DNA from: Candidatus Berkelbacteria bacterium CG10_big_fil_rev_8_21_14_0_10_43_13
Lineage (GTDB): Bacteria; Patescibacteriota; UBA1384; XYA2-FULL-43-10; 1-14-0-10-43-13
Assembly (NCBI GenBank): GCA_002773985.1
Contig: PEZW01000011.1
Location: forward strand, 1 to 32,452
DNA length: 32,452 nt
Direction: 5' to 3'
The notes under the pieces: model-generated
What the model was told of the DNA's origin: nothing
Databases searched by the model: none
Seen by the model: only the letters and a program-made list of their open reading frames with translations
Made by a program: the position numbers and the translations under genes
Part shown: piece after piece, positions 3,175-27,091 of the stretch
Layout of the letters: every line of letters begins with the position of its first letter
Numbering within the stretch: position 1 is the first letter of the stretch

Positions 3175-3191
3175 ACCAACTATTTAGTTAT

Positions 3192-3275
3192 AAAGTTTGT
3201 AAAGTCAGAAAGTTTATAAAGAGCGATCGGAATTAATTTCTTTATAAACTTTAAAAACTTTTTACTTTACAAACT
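3192..3275 (+). repeat. AT-rich imperfect inverted repeat between the two tRNAs
   Basis: The left arm at 3192-3221 and right arm at 3240-3275 share the words AGTTTGTAAAGT and TTTATAAAG in inverted order, with a central spacer near 3222-3239. The same vocabulary recurs at 6085-6172 and 16355-16497. Confidence 0.75.
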
Positions 3276-5601: not shown

Positions 5602-6093
5602 ATGAACATTAGGTATTTGGGTGGTGATAAGTTTGAGATCAAGTCCAAGGATTTGACGATAAATTTGTCTGACAAAGTTTCTATCAACGGATTTGTATTT
5701 CCTGGCCCCGGTGAATACGAGAAAGCCGGTGTCATCATGAGCGGCATCGATGATGGCTCCAATACCATCTATACGATGACTGTCGAAGATATGGACATTT
5801 GCTATCTCGGCCATCTAGCTCATGATCTGTCGGAAGACGAAGGAAAGCAAATCGGCAATGTTGATATCCTTTTCTTGCCACTTGGCGATTCCGATACAGT
5901 TCAGGTCAAGGCAGCGACCAAAATTATTTCCAAGATTGATCCAAAGTTGGTGATTCCGATGCTCTATACTGATCTGACTGAGTTCAAGAAGAGCGAAGGC
6001 GTGACAGATGGTGAGACAGACCAGCTCAAGATCCGCAAGACTGATTTGCCAGAGACTGAGAGGGAAATAGTGATACTTAAAGCTAGTTTATAA
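5602..6093 (+). CDS. Degenerate MBL-fold (UlaG-like) protein without the metal-binding histidine motif
   Basis: 163 aa starting at the ATG at 5602, preceded by GAGAGGT. It resembles the short metallo-beta-lactamase-fold proteins common in Patescibacteria: an N-terminal IRYLGGDKFEIKSKD strand pair, FPGPGEYEKAGVIM, a YLGHLAHDLSEDE segment, VDILFLPLGD, and KLVIPMLYTD. The canonical HxHxDH zinc motif, normally between the first strands and the GPGEYE loop, is missing, as if that segment were deleted. The remaining GHLAH could be a ligand remnant. Enzyme activity is doubtful; a structural or binding role is possible. The stop codon lies inside the left arm of the following inverted repeat. Confidence 0.7.
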   Translation: MNIRYLGGDKFEIKSKDLTINLSDKVSINGFVFPGPGEYEKAGVIMSGIDDGSNTIYTMTVEDMDICYLGHLAHDLSEDEGKQIGNVDILFLPLGDSDTVQVKAATKIISKIDPKLVIPMLYTDLTEFKKSEGVTDGETDQLKIRKTDLPETEREIVILKASL

Positions 6094-6172
6094 AGTTTGT
6101 AAAGTAAAAAGTTTGTAAAGAGATTTCTTTATAAACATTATAAATTTTATAAATTCTCAAACTTTCAAACTT
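6085..6172 (+). repeat. AT-rich inverted repeat spanning stop to start between MBL-like and DHH genes
   Basis: The left arm 6085-6120 (AGTTTATAAAGTTTGTAAAG and onward) includes the upstream stop codon. The right arm 6127-6172 (CTTTATAAACATTATAAATT ... CAAACTTTCAAACTT) ends two bases before the DHH start at 6174. No SD is present. Same vocabulary as 3192-3275. Confidence 0.7.
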
Positions 6173-7222: not shown

Positions 7223-7513
7223 ATGAAAAACTATTATGTTTACATTTTGGCAAGTAAGAAAAGCGGAGTACTCTATATTGGAGTGACTGACAACCTCGTT
7301 CGTAGAGTTTATGAGCATAAAAATAATTTAATCAAAGGTTTTACAAGTAAATATTTTGTTCATCATTTAATATATTTTGAAGAGACTTGTGATGTAAATA
7401 GTGCAATCGCGAGAGAGAAACAGATTAAGCGATGGAAACGAGATTGGAAAATAGAATTAATCGAAAAGAACAACCAGGAATGGCAGGATCTATATCCTGA
7501 AATTATAAATTAA
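7223..7513 (+). CDS. GIY-YIG domain nuclease, single-domain (96 aa)
   Basis: A compact GIY-YIG domain of the UvrC/YhbQ type: YYVYIL at residues 4-9, LYIGVTDNLVRRVYEH at 17-32 (the YIG motif and the arginine at the active site), FTSKY, LIYFEE, and AREKQIKRWKRDWKIELI at the end with the glutamate that binds metal. Such proteins are small and often stand alone. Here the gene is tightly enclosed by two hairpin repeats in inverted orientation: the left ends at 7221 and the right begins on the TAA stop. No Shine-Dalgarno is visible. tRNA-Leu follows 34 bases later. The domain call is firm. A role in moving or maintaining the flanking repeats is inference. Confidence 0.9.
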   Translation: MKNYYVYILASKKSGVLYIGVTDNLVRRVYEHKNNLIKGFTSKYFVHHLIYFEETCDVNSAIAREKQIKRWKRDWKIELIEKNNQEWQDLYPEIIN

Positions 7514-12837: not shown

Positions 12838-14085
12838 ATGGGACTGTTTGGCAAAAACAGGAAGAACTATGCGATTTCACTTGATATTGGCACAGAATTT
12901 GTGAAGGTGCTTGTTTTTCATATTGTCGATGATGTTGCTCATGTCGTCGGTGTTGGTCGGCAAAAACAAGGACTAAGTGATATGCAGGGTGGACGGGTCA
13001 CTGACATCGCCGGGGTGATCAAAAATTGTGAGAAGGCACTTGACCAAGCTTTTGAAGAAGCCAAAGTTGCGCCGCGTCAATGTGTCATCGGTATCGCTGG
13101 CGAACTGGTCAAGGGGACGACGACCGCAGTTCATTATCAGCGCGATGATGCCAAGGAGAAGATTACTGTCAACGAACTCAAAGATATTATCGAGCAGGTC
13201 CAGACCCGTTCGTTTGATCGTGCACGAAGCGAATTGGCTTGGGAAACTGGTCAGGCTGAACTCGATGTCCGCCTAGTCAATTCTTCGATCGTCGATGTTC
13301 ATATTGATGGTTACAAAATTACCAACCCTGTTGGTTTTCAGGGGCGCGACGTCCAGGTCAGTATTTTCAACGCTTTTGCCCCGATCGTTCATCTTGGCGC
13401 GCTTCAGACGATCGCCGAGGATTTGGAGCTAGATTTACTCTCAGTTGCGGCCGAGCCATACGCAGTCGCCAAATGTGTCGGCTCGGAAGACTCATCTGAA
13501 TTTTCGTCAATCTTTGTCGATATTGGCGGTGGCACGACTGACATTGCTGTTGTCCGCGCCGGTGGGCTAGAGGGAACAAAGATGTTCGCCATTGGCGGTC
13601 GGGTCTTTACCAAGTCAATCGCTGATGCGCTTGATAAAACATTTGCCGAAGCAGAAAAACTCAAGCTGGATTATTCCTCTGGCAAGATCAAGGATGATTC
13701 AGAGATTGGCAAGAGTATCAAAAAAGCAATTGCCAACGATTGCGATGTTTGGCTTTCAGGCGTAGAATTAGCCTTGGAAGATTTTACCGAAGTCGAGCTG
13801 ATGCCGTCAAAAATTCTCCTTTGTGGCGGTGGTTCACTTTTGCCAGAGATTGCAGAATATTTGTCGAAGCGAGCGTGGACAAAAAATCTGCCTTTTTCAA
13901 AACAGCCAAAAGTTGATTTCATCAAACCAGCCCAAGTTTCCTCAATTGTCGACGAGACAGGTAAACTTGTTGGTTCGCAGGACATCACACCGATGGCCTT
14001 GGCAAATCTGGCCATTGATTTGGCTGGCGAAGAGAGCGTTGTCGATGGAATTTTGGACAGGATTGTTGAGGGACTGAGAAGATAA
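12838..14085 (+). CDS. ftsA: FtsA-like actin-fold cell-division ATPase
   Basis: 415 aa. Actin-fold phosphate-binding motifs are visible: SLDIGTEFVKVLVF at 14-27 (phosphate 1), FVDIGGGTTDIAVV near 223-236 (phosphate 2), and KILLCGGGSLLPEI near 325 (adenosine motif). The SHS2-type region with GRQKQGLSDMQGGRVTDI favours FtsA over PilM, which would have a pilin operon nearby. FtsA tethers FtsZ to the membrane. The usual C-terminal amphipathic helix may be the final VVDGILDRIVEGLRR. FtsZ is not adjacent. GAGGGG at 12827-12832 supports the start. A GxxExxY cassette follows after two bases. Confidence 0.78.
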   Translation: MGLFGKNRKNYAISLDIGTEFVKVLVFHIVDDVAHVVGVGRQKQGLSDMQGGRVTDIAGVIKNCEKALDQAFEEAKVAPRQCVIGIAGELVKGTTTAVHYQRDDAKEKITVNELKDIIEQVQTRSFDRARSELAWETGQAELDVRLVNSSIVDVHIDGYKITNPVGFQGRDVQVSIFNAFAPIVHLGALQTIAEDLELDLLSVAAEPYAVAKCVGSEDSSEFSSIFVDIGGGTTDIAVVRAGGLEGTKMFAIGGRVFTKSIADALDKTFAEAEKLKLDYSSGKIKDDSEIGKSIKKAIANDCDVWLSGVELALEDFTEVELMPSKILLCGGGSLLPEIAEYLSKRAWTKNLPFSKQPKVDFIKPAQVSSIVDETGKLVGSQDITPMALANLAIDLAGEESVVDGILDRIVEGLRR

Positions 14086-14087
14086 AC

Positions 14088-14128
14088 CACAAATGGATAA
14101 CGAATGGTCTAAATGACCAATCACCAAT
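14088..14128 (+). repeat. Left inverted repeat of GxxExxY cassette 1
   Basis: The 41-base arm matches the reverse complement of 14522-14562 at 33 of 41 positions, counted by eye. It starts two bases after the FtsA-like stop codon. Confidence 0.85.
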
Positions 14129-14140
14129 AAACAAATAAGA

Positions 14141-14518
14141 ATGACTGAGCTTTTGTACAAAGATTTGTCGTATAAGATAACCGGATTAGCTTATAATATT
14201 GATAATACAATTGGATATGGTCAGACTGAACAAACTTACGGAGACGCTCTTGAAGAATTGTTAAAAGAAAACGGCATTAAATATCAGAGAGAAGTATATT
14301 TTCCAATATTGATTGGAGACAAATTAATTAAGAGGGAATATTTCGACTTTTTGATAGACGACAAAATTATTGTCGAATTGAAAATTTCAGACAGAAATTA
14401 CAAAAAAGCTTGTACGCAGATATTTAAATATTTGAAGTCAAGTGGTACAAAACTGGGATTGATTATTCGATTTACAAACGAAGGTGTTAGAATAAAAAGA
14501 ATTCCAAATTATTATTAG
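14141..14518 (+). CDS. GxxExxY protein (PDDEXK_3 nuclease-like), copy 1
   Basis: 125 aa. It begins LLYKDLSYKITGLAYNIDNTIG, then the family-naming GQTEQTY, and REYFDFLIDDKIIVELKIS, in which D, E and K line up as the D-ExK core of the PD-(D/E)XK fold, and QIFKYLKSSGTKLGLIIRF. The family (often called GxxExxY) is abundant and multi-copy in many uncultivated bacteria; its biological role is not established to my knowledge. The gene has no Shine-Dalgarno. It is enclosed by inverted repeats that fill all the space between the FtsA-like stop and the next start. Catalytic residues appear intact, so nuclease activity is plausible. Confidence 0.9.
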   Translation: MTELLYKDLSYKITGLAYNIDNTIGYGQTEQTYGDALEELLKENGIKYQREVYFPILIGDKLIKREYFDFLIDDKIIVELKISDRNYKKACTQIFKYLKSSGTKLGLIIRFTNEGVRIKRIPNYY

Positions 14519-14521
14519 TCA

Positions 14522-14562
14522 ATTAGTCATTGGTTATTTAGAAAATTAGTCATCCGTTTGTG
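14522..14562 (+). repeat. Right inverted repeat of GxxExxY cassette 1
   Basis: Reverse complement of 14088-14128 with eight mismatches. It ends two bases before the next gene's ATG (14565) and begins three bases after the cassette gene's stop. Confidence 0.85.
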
Positions 14563-14564
14563 CA

Positions 14565-16349
14565 ATGAATAAGATATTTTATCTAGAATCAGATGAAGAG
14601 ATTACAAAGGTAATCAATCGAATCCGCCAGAGCGAAGAAGACGGTGCGGTTTTGGTCATACCTCGAAATTCAACTCTGACTCAGAGTGTGATCAATTTGA
14701 AACTGCTGAAGCGGGGTGCCGAAGAGCATAAGAAAATGATCGGACTTGTCACGACTGATCGTGTGACCAAAAACTTAGCTGATCAGCTTGGTGTCAAAGT
14801 TTTTAGTAAGGTCAGCGAAGCAGAAAAGGCGATGCTGATTGTCGAAGCTGTGAAGATCCCAGCCAAGTTGGCTGACGATGCCGATCTTAGGGTCAACACC
14901 TACAAAAAGTATGATCTTTCTGGTCTGAATAAAGACGAGCCACTAACTGAGTCTGACGATGATATTAAGCTATCAAAGAAATCACTCGAAGACGTAGCTG
15001 AGCCGGAAATATCGAGTGTTGAGCACCAAGAGGAAAATATTGACGAGGTCGAGGAACAGGGGCCCGACCAAAAAGAGTCTGACGATAAAGCGGCTGACGA
15101 AAGTAAAAACGAGGATGATGATATGAAATTAAGATCGGAAAAAGGTCGCTTATTCGGCAATAATCATAGTAAACATATCAAAACTGGTGGTAGTCGAAAA
15201 CCATTGGCAATTTTAGCTGCGGTGACTATCATCGTTCTTCTTGTTGTAGTCTGCCTCTTTCTTCCATCTGCAAAAGCGTCACTTGTTTTGAAGACTGCTG
15301 ACCTTGACAAAACAGCATCGATAAATGTCGACAAATCTCAAAAAACATTTGATCTCACTTCTGGCACGATGCCGGGAACAGTAGTCAAGCTGGAAAAGTC
15401 GATCTCGAAGAGTTTTGCCTCGACTGGTCAAAAAGATGCTGGCACGAAGGCAACCGGAACGGTGACGATTTCAAATGGTGTTAGTAGTGGGGCTATCCCA
15501 TTGTCGGCTGGAACGAAGGTTACCAGCGCTGATGGTGCTGTGTTTACTATTGATACGGGTGTGATGATACCAGGGATGACTAATGTCCAAATTTCCGGTG
15601 GCAAAGTGACCAGCTATGACGCTGGAACGGCTGATGTTGCTGTCACAGCTTCAGCAAATGGCGATGGTTATAACTTGCCAATCAACACAAAATTTACAGT
15701 CAGCTCATCGGCTGGTGTCCTGACGGCAGCCAATAAGGCGGCATTTGCTGGTGGTGTAACAAAAAACATTACTTTTGTTAGTCAGGAAGATCTAGACAAT
15801 GTGGGGCAAGCAATCTCTGACCAAGCCTTAGCGGACAACAAGGCTGAGTTACTTGGTAATGCCGAGAAAGCCTCAGTTGTAATTGATGAAAAAAATATTA
15901 CCATAAATGTCATTTCGACCACGACAGACAAAAACGTCAACGATGAGGCTGAAAGCTTCGCAGTAACGGCCGCCATCAAGCTTTCAGCTTTTGGTTTTTC
16001 CGAGAAGGACTTGCGGGCAGCGATGGAAAAAATCGTTGAGAAGGATTTGAAATCTGGTGAAATGCTGGTCAATCCTGAAGGTAGTGATTTGACGTATAAA
16101 ACCACTGCTTACAATTCTGATGCTGGGACGATGAAACTCGATGTTAATTTCAAGGCCAAGACTGGCACAAAAATTTCTGCGGACACTTTGATAAAAGGGA
16201 TGGTGGGAAAGAGTGCGACTTCAGCACAAAATTATCTTGAAAGTCAAAACGGTGTTGCTTCTGTCTCGATCGGATTTATTCCAAAATTTTGGCGGGTAAT
16301 GCCTTTCATGTCGAATCGGATAGATGTCAAGTTTGATTATCAGAAGTAA
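14565..16349 (+). CDS. Large membrane-anchored protein with baseplate-J-like extracytoplasmic region
   Basis: 594 aa. Residues 1-110 form an alpha/beta domain (VLVIPRNSTLTQSVINLKLL...MIGLVTTDRVTKNLADQLGV). An acidic, low-complexity linker follows (about 125-190). One membrane helix lies at about 210-232 (LAILAAVTIIVLLVVVCLFL). The extracytoplasmic part is beta-rich, with KATGTVTISNG...IPLSAGTKVTSADG and ASANGDGYNLPINTKF, reminiscent of the baseplate J/gp47 fold that CPR proteins of this layout are often annotated with. Its place after an FtsA-like gene suggests an envelope or division role. Function is unknown. No SD; the ATG follows an inverted repeat arm. Confidence 0.65.
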   Translation: MNKIFYLESDEEITKVINRIRQSEEDGAVLVIPRNSTLTQSVINLKLLKRGAEEHKKMIGLVTTDRVTKNLADQLGVKVFSKVSEAEKAMLIVEAVKIPAKLADDADLRVNTYKKYDLSGLNKDEPLTESDDDIKLSKKSLEDVAEPEISSVEHQEENIDEVEEQGPDQKESDDKAADESKNEDDDMKLRSEKGRLFGNNHSKHIKTGGSRKPLAILAAVTIIVLLVVVCLFLPSAKASLVLKTADLDKTASINVDKSQKTFDLTSGTMPGTVVKLEKSISKSFASTGQKDAGTKATGTVTISNGVSSGAIPLSAGTKVTSADGAVFTIDTGVMIPGMTNVQISGGKVTSYDAGTADVAVTASANGDGYNLPINTKFTVSSSAGVLTAANKAAFAGGVTKNITFVSQEDLDNVGQAISDQALADNKAELLGNAEKASVVIDEKNITINVISTTTDKNVNDEAESFAVTAAIKLSAFGFSEKDLRAAMEKIVEKDLKSGEMLVNPEGSDLTYKTTAYNSDAGTMKLDVNFKAKTGTKISADTLIKGMVGKSATSAQNYLESQNGVASVSIGFIPKFWRVMPFMSNRIDVKFDYQK

Positions 16350-16354
16350 TTATT

Positions 16355-16497
16355 AGTTCATAAAGTAGAAAGTTCATAAAGTAGGAAAGTTGGAAGGCTT
16401 GTAAAGTAGAAAGTCCACAAAGAATTACATTACAAACTTTTAAAACTTTTAACTTTATAAATTTTATAAACTTTATAAACTTTCCAACTTTATGAAC
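16355..16497 (+). repeat. About 140-bp AT-rich imperfect palindrome
   Basis: The left half (16355-16421) has tandem words TTCATAAAGTAGAAAG; the right half (16434-16497) inverts them (ACAAACTTTTAAAACTTTT ... TTTCCAACTTTATGAAC). The outermost words are AGTTCATAAAGT and ACTTTATGAACTT. The start codon of ruvX (16492) lies inside the right arm. Confidence 0.8.
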
Positions 16498-16902
16498 TTT
16501 CTAGCCATCGATTGGGGTGAAAAAAGAATAGGCTTAGCGGTCGGTGCCATCTTTCCAAAAGGCGCAGGTGTTATTGATGGTGCCAAAGATTCCTCACAGA
16601 TCATCGATGAAATAAAAAGTGTAATTGCTGAAAACGAGGTCGATAAAATAGTTGTCGGTATGCCGATGTTGCCAAGCGGCGACGAGGGAAGATTGGCGCC
16701 GCAGATCAAAAAATTTGCCATCGGCCTCGGCGATGCGACCGGTCTGCCGATTATTTTCGAGCCGGAGGAATTTACCTCGGTTGAAGCAAAAGACCAGTTT
16801 AAAGCTCACGGCAAAATTCCAAATCGAAAGAGTGGAAAAACGGACGAGATGGCAGCGATTATGATTCTCGAGAAGTTTCTCGAGAAAATGACAAAATCCT
16901 AA
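16492..16902 (+). CDS. ruvX: Putative pre-16S rRNA nuclease / Holliday junction resolvase-like (YqgF/RuvX)
   Basis: 136 aa, the normal length. RNase-H-fold motifs: AIDWGEKRIGLAVG at 5-18 (catalytic D7), DKIVVGMPM at about 47-55, FEPEEFTSVEAKDQF, and KSGKTDEMAAIMILEKFL near the C-terminus with the second acidic residue. The family matures the 16S rRNA 5' end in E. coli. The ATG is part of the preceding inverted repeat and no Shine-Dalgarno exists, so initiation must be SD-independent or the start is repeat-supplied. Confidence 0.9.
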   Translation: MNFLAIDWGEKRIGLAVGAIFPKGAGVIDGAKDSSQIIDEIKSVIAENEVDKIVVGMPMLPSGDEGRLAPQIKKFAIGLGDATGLPIIFEPEEFTSVEAKDQFKAHGKIPNRKSGKTDEMAAIMILEKFLEKMTKS

Positions 16903-19237: not shown

Positions 19238-19342
19238 AATCACGAAAATACGAACAATACAAAAATACAAACAGTTTAAGGTAGTCTGGTGGCTGATGAT
19301 ATTTAAAATTTGTATTTTCGTATAATTTGTATTTTCATGATT
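19238..19342 (+). repeat. Gene-free inverted repeat between mreB and mreC
   Basis: Arms 19238-19271 and 19309-19342 are reverse complements at 29 of 34 positions, counted by eye, with a 37-base centre. The left arm starts two bases after the mreB stop; the right arm contains an in-frame ATG (19337) of mreC. Shares TACAAATTATAC with the repeat at 26630-26664. Confidence 0.85.
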
Positions 19343-23775: not shown

Positions 23776-25266
23776 ATGGCAGAAAATTTGGGTGCGACTG
23801 AAAAAGAACTAGTCGAAAACAGGCTTGAAAAACTTGAAGCCTTGCGAGCGCAGGGTGTCGATCCGTATCCATCGAAATCCAGCCGGACAAAGATGACGGC
23901 TGATGTTCGAAAAGACAAGGACAAGCTGATTGCCGATAAAGCAAACGTGACGGTCGCCGGCAGGCTGATGGCTAAGCGCGGTCATGGTAAATTGATTTTT
24001 GCTGATATTGAAGATATCACCGGTAAGATTCAAACTGTCTTCAAAATTGATATTTTGGGCGAAAAATTTGATCAAATTTCTTTGTTCGAAGTCGGCGATT
24101 TTATCGAGGTAGTCGGCACAGTCTTTGTGACAGCGGCCGGTGAACTGACAGTTGAGGCTGAAGGAATTAAAATTCTGGCCAAGACGATTCGACCAATTCC
24201 TGAGAAGTGGTATGGTATCAAAGACGAGGAGCTGCGTTTTCGCAAGCGTTATCTCGATTTCATACTCGAGCCGGAAATGCGTGATCTTTTCATCAAAAAA
24301 GCAAAATTTTGGCAATCGATCAGAGAGTTTTTGGTTGCAAAAGGTTTTCTGGAAGTAGAAACTCCGGTGCTGGAATCGACAGCCGGTGGTGCGGACGCAA
24401 ATCCATTTACAACACATCATCATGCCTTTGATATGGATGTTTACCTGCGAATTTCGACAGGCGAGCTTTGGCAGAAGCGATTGATGGTGGCTGGATTTGA
24501 AAAAACCTTCGAAATAGGTCGACAATTTCGAAATGAGGGCATTTCTCGCGAACATCTCCAGGATTATTCTCAAGTTGAATATTACTGGGCTTATGCCGAC
24601 TATGAGGACAATATGAAAATGGTTCAGGAAATGTATTGCCATGTCGCCAAAGAAACATTCAACACGACAAAATTTCAGATCAACGGTTTTGATATCGATT
24701 TGGCTGACGACTGGACTCACTTGGATTATGTTGAGACCGTAAAAGAAAAATTAAGCATCGATGTTCTGGAAGCGTCAGAGGATGAGATAAGAGCAAAACT
24801 AAAAGAATTAAAAATTGAATTTAAACCAAATGAACGTCGTGGTCGCCTGATCGATTCACTCTGGAAACATATTCGCAAAACGATCGCTGGGCCGGCTTTC
24901 CTGATCAATCATCCAGTTGAGGTTTCGCCCCTAGCCAAGCGAAAAGCCGACGATCCACGTCTAGTTGAGAGATTCCAGCCGATTATTGCCGGGTCCGAGA
25001 TCGGAAACGGTTATTCTGAGCTGAACGATCCGGTCGATCAGCGTGCACGGTTCGATGAACAGGCCAAGATGCGGGCGGAGGGTGACAATGAAGCCCAGAT
25101 GTTTGATGAGGAGTTTGTCGAAGCGCTAGAATATGGCATGCCACCGACGACTGGTTTTGGCACATCTGAGCGGATGTTTGCCTTTCTTGCCGGAAAAACA
25201 GTTCGTGAGGCACAGATATTTCCACTGATGAAACCAGACAAGCCAGAGGCTGGCAAAAATTCTTAA
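23776..25266 (+). CDS. lysS: Lysyl-tRNA synthetase, class II
   Basis: 496 aa, usual length. An N-terminal OB-fold binds the anticodon (AGRLMAKRGHGKLIFADIED, about 55-74). The class II core shows RFRKRYLDFI (motif 1 region), FLEVETPVLESTAGGADANPF, FEIGRQFRNEGISREH (motif 2), and GNGYSELNDPVDQRARF with EYGMPPTTGFGTSERMFAFLAG (motif 3). CCGAGG at 23766-23771 is the SD-like site. It charges tRNA-Lys. No repeat insert was seen in this gene. Confidence 0.97.
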   Translation: MAENLGATEKELVENRLEKLEALRAQGVDPYPSKSSRTKMTADVRKDKDKLIADKANVTVAGRLMAKRGHGKLIFADIEDITGKIQTVFKIDILGEKFDQISLFEVGDFIEVVGTVFVTAAGELTVEAEGIKILAKTIRPIPEKWYGIKDEELRFRKRYLDFILEPEMRDLFIKKAKFWQSIREFLVAKGFLEVETPVLESTAGGADANPFTTHHHAFDMDVYLRISTGELWQKRLMVAGFEKTFEIGRQFRNEGISREHLQDYSQVEYYWAYADYEDNMKMVQEMYCHVAKETFNTTKFQINGFDIDLADDWTHLDYVETVKEKLSIDVLEASEDEIRAKLKELKIEFKPNERRGRLIDSLWKHIRKTIAGPAFLINHPVEVSPLAKRKADDPRLVERFQPIIAGSEIGNGYSELNDPVDQRARFDEQAKMRAEGDNEAQMFDEEFVEALEYGMPPTTGFGTSERMFAFLAGKTVREAQIFPLMKPDKPEAGKNS

Positions 25267-25367
25267 TTATTAATTTTTAATTTCTAATCAATTCCTAATT
25301 TCCAATTTTTAAACATTAATAATTAAAAATTGAATAAAAATTAAGAACTAAAAATTAGAAATTGGAG
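25263..25367 (+). repeat. AT-rich inverted repeat between lysS and serS
   Basis: The left arm (25263-25311: TTAATTATTAATTTTTAATT and onward to CCTAATTTCCAATTTTT) includes the lysS stop; the right arm (25318-25367) inverts it, ending AAAAATTAGAAATTGGAG. The terminal GGAG of the right arm may serve as Shine-Dalgarno for serS. Confidence 0.75.
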
Positions 25368-26629: not shown

Positions 26630-26664
26630 ATTACAAAACTACAAATTATACAAATCTTACAAAT
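26630..26664 (+). repeat. Left 35-bp inverted repeat of GxxExxY cassette 2
   Basis: By direct reading this 35-base arm is a perfect reverse complement of 27057-27091. It begins one base after the serS stop and its last two bases are the A and T of the cassette gene's start codon. Confidence 0.95.
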
Positions 26665-27064
26665 GGTGGAGGGAAAAAATAAAGTAATTTATCTGGAGCT
26701 TAGCTATAAGATAGTCGGCTGTCTTTTTAATGTTTTTAATAATATCGGACCGAACCATCGGGAGAGTTATTATCAAAAAACTGTAGCTATCGAACTGAAT
26801 CGTAGTGGTTTGAGTTTTGTCGAGCAATATCCAGTTGATCTCAAATATAGGAGCGAAAAGATAGGGAAAAGTTTCCTTGATTTTAATATAGAAAACAAGG
26901 TAATCTTAGAATTGAAGTCTGGACGTTTTATTCATCGCGGAGATTTTATACAATTACATAATTACCTAAAAACATGTGGGATGGAATTGGGAATCATCGC
27001 TTGTTTCACAGCCAAAGGAGTGGTTTATCATCGAATTCTCAACATCAAGAGGCACGATTTGTAA
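26663..27064 (+). CDS. GxxExxY protein (PDDEXK_3 nuclease-like), copy 2
   Basis: 133 aa from ATG 26663; the frame stays open upstream but only into serS. LELSYKIVGCLFNVFNNIG is the family N-terminal helix. The naming motif is altered (NHRESYY, with N for the first G). SFLDFNIENKVILELKSG supplies the D-ExK core, followed by QLHNYLKTCGMELGIIACFTAKGV. It is only distantly similar to copy 1, so this is not a recent duplication. A GGAGGG right after the start codon is not a usable SD. Both codon ends fall inside a perfect 35-bp inverted repeat. Role unknown; nuclease fold with intact catalytic residues. Confidence 0.88.
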   Translation: MVEGKNKVIYLELSYKIVGCLFNVFNNIGPNHRESYYQKTVAIELNRSGLSFVEQYPVDLKYRSEKIGKSFLDFNIENKVILELKSGRFIHRGDFIQLHNYLKTCGMELGIIACFTAKGVVYHRILNIKRHDL

Positions 27065-27091
27065 GATTTGTATAATTTGTAGTTTTGTAAT
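27057..27091 (+). repeat. Right 35-bp inverted repeat of GxxExxY cassette 2
   Basis: Perfect reverse complement of 26630-26664; includes the TAA stop (27062-27064). It ends eight bases before the hpf Shine-Dalgarno. Confidence 0.95.

Follow-up and report, generated by a model that had tools for sequence, protein, structure and literature searches.

The window analyzed here is a stretch of 32,452 nucleotides (contig PEZW01000011.1) from the 838-kb genome of Candidatus Berkelbacteria bacterium CG10_big_fil_rev_8_21_14_0_10_43_13 (designated G000; G001 is a congener). Between an FtsA-like gene and the next host gene lies a unit of ∼475 bp, in which a gene of the GxxExxY PD-(D/E)XK nuclease family is placed between two inverted arms:

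12838–14085, + strand: FtsA-like host gene, upstream
14088–14137, + strand: left arm, an inward array of degenerate units CACAAAT, AACGAAT, TCTAAAT, GACCAAT and CACCAAT (ungapped core 14088–14128)
14141–14518, + strand: GxxExxY (PDDEXK_3) gene, 125 aa, catalytic set present
14522–14562, − strand: right arm, repeating the left one in inverted orientation (33/41); the gapped alignment extends inward into the stop codon
14565–16349, + strand: host gene 3′ of the insertion

The initial annotation, made from sequence, had described 41-base arms matching at 33 of 41 positions and set two bases away from the FtsA-like stop and the next start, and all of these details were confirmed. The arms 14088–14128 and 14522–14562 pair without gaps, and a 2-base spacer separates each of them from the neighboring gene (FtsA-like stop codon at 14083–14085, next ATG at 14565). 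Pairing continues inward beyond the 41-nt core, to about 50–54 nt, and the ends of the element read CCACAAATGG. The flanks of the element gave a gapped local score of 25–30, compared with a maximum of 15–17 in shuffled sequences and of 18 among 1000 random window pairs. A chance origin of the arms was ruled out by shuffles, mismatched pairs and control genes. The window also contains a small GIY-YIG nuclease gene (7223–7513) among host genes; when checked for paired arms, it had none (score 11, shuffle maximum 14).

The product of gene 14141–14518 matched both TIGR04256 (GxxExxY; E-value 1.3e-25, 90 bits versus a curated cut-off of 35) and PF13366 (PDDEXK_3; E-value 3.9e-24, 85.7 bits versus a curated cut-off of 22). 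Residues E23, D62, E72xK74 and Q86xxxY90 (aligned-domain numbering) were 95–100% conserved. The AlphaFold (AF2) model of the window protein had a pLDDT of 94, and its best structural match was the Cas4-like protein SSO0001 (Z 9.5, rmsd 3.2 over 99 residues), followed by restriction-endonuclease-like folds. Judging from sequence and model, the window protein is a PD-(D/E)XK nuclease; its catalytic set is intact and its predicted fold is Cas4-like. Holliday-junction resolvases (Hjc) were among the structural matches at Z 6–7, too low for assigning function. One orthologous pair showed a dN of 0.17 and a dS of about 2, the latter being close to saturation; these values agree with purifying selection on GxxExxY in that pair. 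Candidate roles in defence or phage biology were rejected: PADLOC gave weak hits only (none for the window gene), and the weak PHROG hits were all function-unknown. Rfam revealed no known RNA family in the window beyond tRNAs.

A second element of this kind, as well as a geneless hairpin, could be identified further downstream:

19238–19342, no strand assigned: geneless hairpin belonging to the same core class (units TACGAAC and TACAAAA), located directly after mreB
26630–26668, + strand: left arm of the second GxxExxY element, built from ACAAAT units
26678–27064, + strand: second GxxExxY gene, its tail overlapping the right arm
27053–27091, − strand: right arm of the second GxxExxY element

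The arms of the second element were identical to each other at 38 of 39 positions. As noticed earlier, the layout is the same as at 14088 and the arm sequences differ (best local score 13). The two GxxExxY proteins of the window share 32% identity, and the two loci are distant lineages; the earlier view that they are not one fixed element copied twice was right. Additional geneless hairpins or repeat arrays built from other units (AATTTCTAATTT, GTTTATAAAGT) were present at 25258–25356, 16366–16503, 3189–3275 and 6085–6172; unit GTTTATAAAGT is similar to the arms of an S23 gene (L205).

Paired arms proved to be a common property of GxxExxY loci. All seven GxxExxY genes of G000 and G001 (four and three, respectively) had them, and in five genomes of the order they were detected at 17 of 17 scored intact loci, rather than lacking at most loci of the lineage. 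The initial annotation was also right that the gene is what the different loci have in common. The phylum sample consisted of 286 genomes, 45 of which contained the family. The median gapped arm score of a locus against itself was 20.5, versus 10 when left and right arms came from different loci, and for 47 of 87 loci the own right arm was the best among all 87 candidates. A score of at least 18 was reached by 56 of the 83 intact single GxxExxY genes in the phylum, about a third of the intact genes being without recognizable arms. As a control, 24 of 588 genes in G000 had such a score, including 7 that were GxxExxY or S23 genes as identified by coordinate matching; the rest corresponded to 17 of 581 (about 3%). 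Most of the loci sampled outside the phylum had paired arms as well: for 77 loci, among them representatives of Bacteroidota, Planctomycetota, Cyanobacteria, Chloroflexota and Proteobacteria, the median score was 21 for own pairs and 10.5 for mismatched pairs (example arms, ACCACAGAGGACACAGAGG). With regard to the relationship between arm identity and gene intactness proposed in the initial annotation, four of five broken genes have kept their arms, too small a sample to draw a conclusion on arm decay following gene decay.

The arms are arrays of a 7-bp core, YRCNRAN (TACGAAT, TACTAAT, CACAGAT, CACAGAG and others), with successive cores mostly spaced by 8–10 bp, about one helical turn. A total of 325 occurrences of the core were counted in 112 CPR arms, versus 26 when the same arms were read backwards, and the corresponding numbers for arms of other phyla were 223 and 63. 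The cores point inward, a GxxExxY arm carrying on average 2.9 inward and 0.1 outward cores. The arms of the window element represent a looser version of this core.

Arm similarity increased with protein identity, from a mean score of 8.5 at <30% identity to 23 at >60%. In a Mantel test restricted to the arm segments, and leaving out pairs with shared (homologous) flanking genes, the correlation was 0.465, a value reached by none of 5000 permutations. Two elements at unrelated loci of genome G154 (L061 and L067), whose proteins are 80% identical, are especially informative: their arms match side for side (left–left 0.93, right–right 0.86), whereas left and right arms within one copy match at only 0.58–0.72, which is the pattern expected from whole-unit copying. 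Similarly, the window element (L009) and another G154 element (L080) have arms in common at different loci, with 65% protein identity. Thus, the initial annotation's idea that the repeats are locus-specific was not supported, arm sequence following the gene lineage at unrelated loci. Orthologous loci can carry differing arms (L006/L007). It was also observed that one conserved gene pair hosts GxxExxY genes in a number of CPR genomes, the arms varying from one to another (L032, L046, L065, L079 and L085), which makes site preference or repeated replacement likely at this pair.

The ftsA site itself was found in different states. At the orthologous position, the flanking genes are 1 nt apart in G134 and 4 nt apart in G289, and other hairpin-like repeats lie between them in G001, G290 and G250. 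In G154, a solo arm of the window's arm family lies directly after the ftsA stop, so that the search for the same arms without the gene at an orthologous gap, as suggested earlier, did yield a related example. Hence, the ftsA site has been empty at times and occupied at others; the element may be ancestral at this site or may have been inserted more than once. No target-site duplication was visible at the compared empty and filled sites, the hosts of which are 76–88% identical; likewise, no clean excision product was found at the compared loci and no insertion polymorphism was seen between near-identical strains. Some loci retain the element for long times, which shows that movement is rare. 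Arms and gene diverge together as a single unit, which is found at unrelated loci, is present at some orthologous gaps and absent from others, and coexists with geneless hairpins whose arms are of the same kind. The ftsA gap of G288 (L108) contains two unrelated small genes flanked by imperfect inverted arms that are built from a different unit.

Many arms occur without a gene. The arm family of the window element was found again at ten sites in G154 and at one additional site in G000, most of these sites being palindromes of 100–160 bp without a gene. This family was absent from the nine other genomes of the order, including G176, a congener of G154 without a GxxExxY hit. A scan of 816 kb of G000 revealed 346 inverted repeats with a score of at least 20, compared with 31 in a block-shuffled control. 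Four or more inward cores were present in 27 of the 179 short geneless hairpins of this genome, and four or more outward cores in none. Six geneless hairpins of G000, with termini such as GGATTATTCNANCACGGATC, have arms that match those of a gene-bearing locus in this genome (L005).

Seven genes for S23/IVP four-helix-bundle proteins were also observed in G000 (L202–L208), most of them between paired iterated-oligomer arms of a different class (for example, TACCGAGGCACGAGTACCGAG), and several of these arm families were found again as geneless hairpins. At six of the seven S23 loci the arms had none or one inward YRCNRAN core, versus 2.9 per GxxExxY arm; therefore, each protein family has its own arm class.

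Bacteroides provided a further site found in different states. An arm-bearing gene is located in the gap next to radA in ten Bacteroides species, belonging to three GxxExxY gene clades, and in the others this gap is 3–80 nt long or holds a solo arm. At L313 and L314, RadA is 98% identical, whereas the GxxExxY proteins are 58% identical and the arms are different; thus, complete units have been exchanged. Element ends in this genus read TTCACCACAG, and geneless TTCACCACAG...CTGTGGTGAA hairpins of 74–263 bp are common, with up to 175 arm sites in one genome and none for a reversed control pattern. At least nine arm sites were present in 10 of 10 carriers of this gene clade versus 6 of 50 other genomes (Fisher 1e-7), a co-occurrence confounded by host kinship: G317 and G340, which are closely related to carriers, lack the gene but contain 28 and 50 arm sites, respectively. 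Within Bacteroides, only in G338 did the GG/TT arm subtype correspond to the subtype of the resident gene. Two species have orthologous hairpins, L344 and L352, with mutually inverted loops, and both arms of each share the same private variant. Inter-arm recombination would explain why arms are paired within a locus yet diverge between loci. Concerted evolution of the two arms was clear at L344/L352 and partial at L008/L011, but it was not seen at L310/L311 and is not universal. Two Bacteroides loci (L356 and L357) contained nested palindromes, a CGCAGATTAA hairpin within a CACAGAGGAC hairpin. In close species, an insertion point with a stop codon on one side and a T-run on the other is occupied by three unrelated hairpin types (L344, L381 and L387), as if terminator hairpins were a preferred insertion target.

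What has been found appears to be a mobile genetic element of a kind that has attracted little attention. We consider it probable that this palindromic element is mobile and that the nuclease it encodes acts on the element's own arms, the geneless hairpins being non-autonomous derivatives; both movement and cleavage are inferred here. In such a mechanism, the nuclease would recognize the iterated cores of its own lineage and cleave at these cores or close to them, the DNA being either duplex or extruded as a cruciform. Cleavage may then drive copying into intergenic gaps via host break repair, including gaps that already hold a hairpin. The geneless hairpins would be internally deleted copies moved in trans, and recombination between the arms would keep both alike within a locus and invert the loop. 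A wider generalization can be offered tentatively, although we regard it as somewhat doubtful: GxxExxY proteins might be the mobility nucleases of phylum-spanning palindromic elements that spread by arm cleavage (probably of cruciforms) and repair, without a DDE, HUH, serine/tyrosine or reverse-transcriptase enzyme, and S23 four-helix-bundle genes would then represent a second, parallel class with arms of a different kind.

Several other explanations need to be weighed against the nuclease-driven element. The hairpin itself could be the mobile or recurrent entity, moved by host replication/recombination or by another enzyme, with GxxExxY, like S23, as a passenger in the loop. Since unrelated S23 genes lie in similar palindromes, for which matching geneless hairpins exist, the GxxExxY gene may be cargo; the persistence of arm sites in genomes without a GxxExxY gene, and the three different hairpin types in one gap of close Bacteroides species, point in the same direction. 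However, GxxExxY arms contain inward YRCNRAN cores that S23 arms mostly lack, arm sequence tracks the gene lineage and the catalytic residues are conserved; we regard this explanation as rather unlikely. It is quite improbable, in our judgment, that the arms act as RNA. In this case, the transcript would fold into a long stem that is cut by RNase III, like the stem of a 23S rRNA intervening sequence, and the insertion would be tolerated because the stem keeps the ORF apart from host mRNAs. The arms are paired in the predicted fold of the + strand (z −4.7), the gene is on the strand of its neighbors in 92% of CPR cases versus a 75% baseline, and the Coxiella intervening sequence has an ORF, an RNase III-cut stem and tandem heptamers (PMC4990558). 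Nevertheless, good folding is expected of any good inverted repeat, no Rfam family matched, the inward-only cores with 8–10-bp phasing fit protein–DNA binding better and RNA folding does not explain the spread to unrelated loci.

The initial annotation favored nuclease-driven formation or use of local inverted repeats. That the nuclease uses the arms is plausible. De novo formation is unnecessary because the arms travel with the gene and recur without it. Local generation or expansion of repeats around an independently moving gene could account for the strong arm differences between distant loci and for orthologous loci with differing arms (L006/L007). However, the left–right differences preserved in the L061/L067 copies, the matching arms of related genes at unrelated loci and the geneless hairpins with the same termini speak against it; it is already contradicted for recent copies, and overall we give it very little credence.

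If the nuclease-driven element is real, a family found across bacterial phyla, which is known only by a sequence motif and annotated as of unknown function, would acquire a testable function. It would also account for part of the intergenic hairpins of CPR and Bacteroides genomes that lack an explanation, and the few nuclease classes that are known to maintain palindromic repeats would be joined by another one. An explicit, and thus directly testable, DNA substrate is predicted, namely an arm with inward YRCNRAN cores 8–10 bp apart. In the open-access literature, GxxExxY was encountered as a passing mention, and we found no publication linking the family to palindromic arms; neither the arm sequences nor the family accessions were found in any relevant paper.

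By analogy with known systems, the element would work most like a REPtron, with an unrelated nuclease. REPtrons (TnpA-REP or RAYT, with REP/BIME; PMC8266576, PMC3116915) likewise comprise one coding gene bordered by inverted palindromes and many geneless intergenic palindromes. However, the REPtron nuclease is an HUH enzyme (Y1 transposase), whereas PDDEXK_3 (PD-(D/E)XK) was the sole domain found here, and the GTAG or CGTC tag at the foot of a short-stem REP palindrome is absent, the ends being CCACAAATGG in the window and TTCACCACAG in Bacteroides. In addition, the arms here are arrays of 8–10-bp units and the gene itself reaches up to nine copies per genome (G154). Terminal inverted repeats common to copies are shared with classical insertion sequences (compare L061/L067 and the G154 arm family), but these have a DDE or other known transposase, none of which was found in the GxxExxY element. 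The 23S rRNA intervening sequence with its S23p ORF, which is regarded as a selfish element, also places a short ORF between arms that are complementary and contain iterated heptamers (PMC4990558); in contrast, the elements described here are intergenic with protein-coding neighbors (no rRNA is present in the window), encode an unrelated fold and have many geneless copies.

For a Thiomargarita MITE, it has been suggested from a single genome that a PD-(D/E)XK nuclease is the partner of non-autonomous elements with inverted repeats; the MITE in hupL has a 10-bp direct repeat and a 19-bp inverted repeat, and the nuclease is PDDEXK_2 (YhgA/Rpn, a putative transposase) rather than PDDEXK_3 (PMC4853749). 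The intergenic TAACTGA repeats, located beside start codons in Beggiatoaceae, Cyanobacteria and Bacteroidetes, are also iterated heptamers, but almost all are direct and without a linked gene, whereas GxxExxY arms are inverted (PMC4679880). Finally, the same-site exchange observed in Bacteroides is compatible with cleavage of the empty allele of the element's own insertion site, as by a homing endonuclease.
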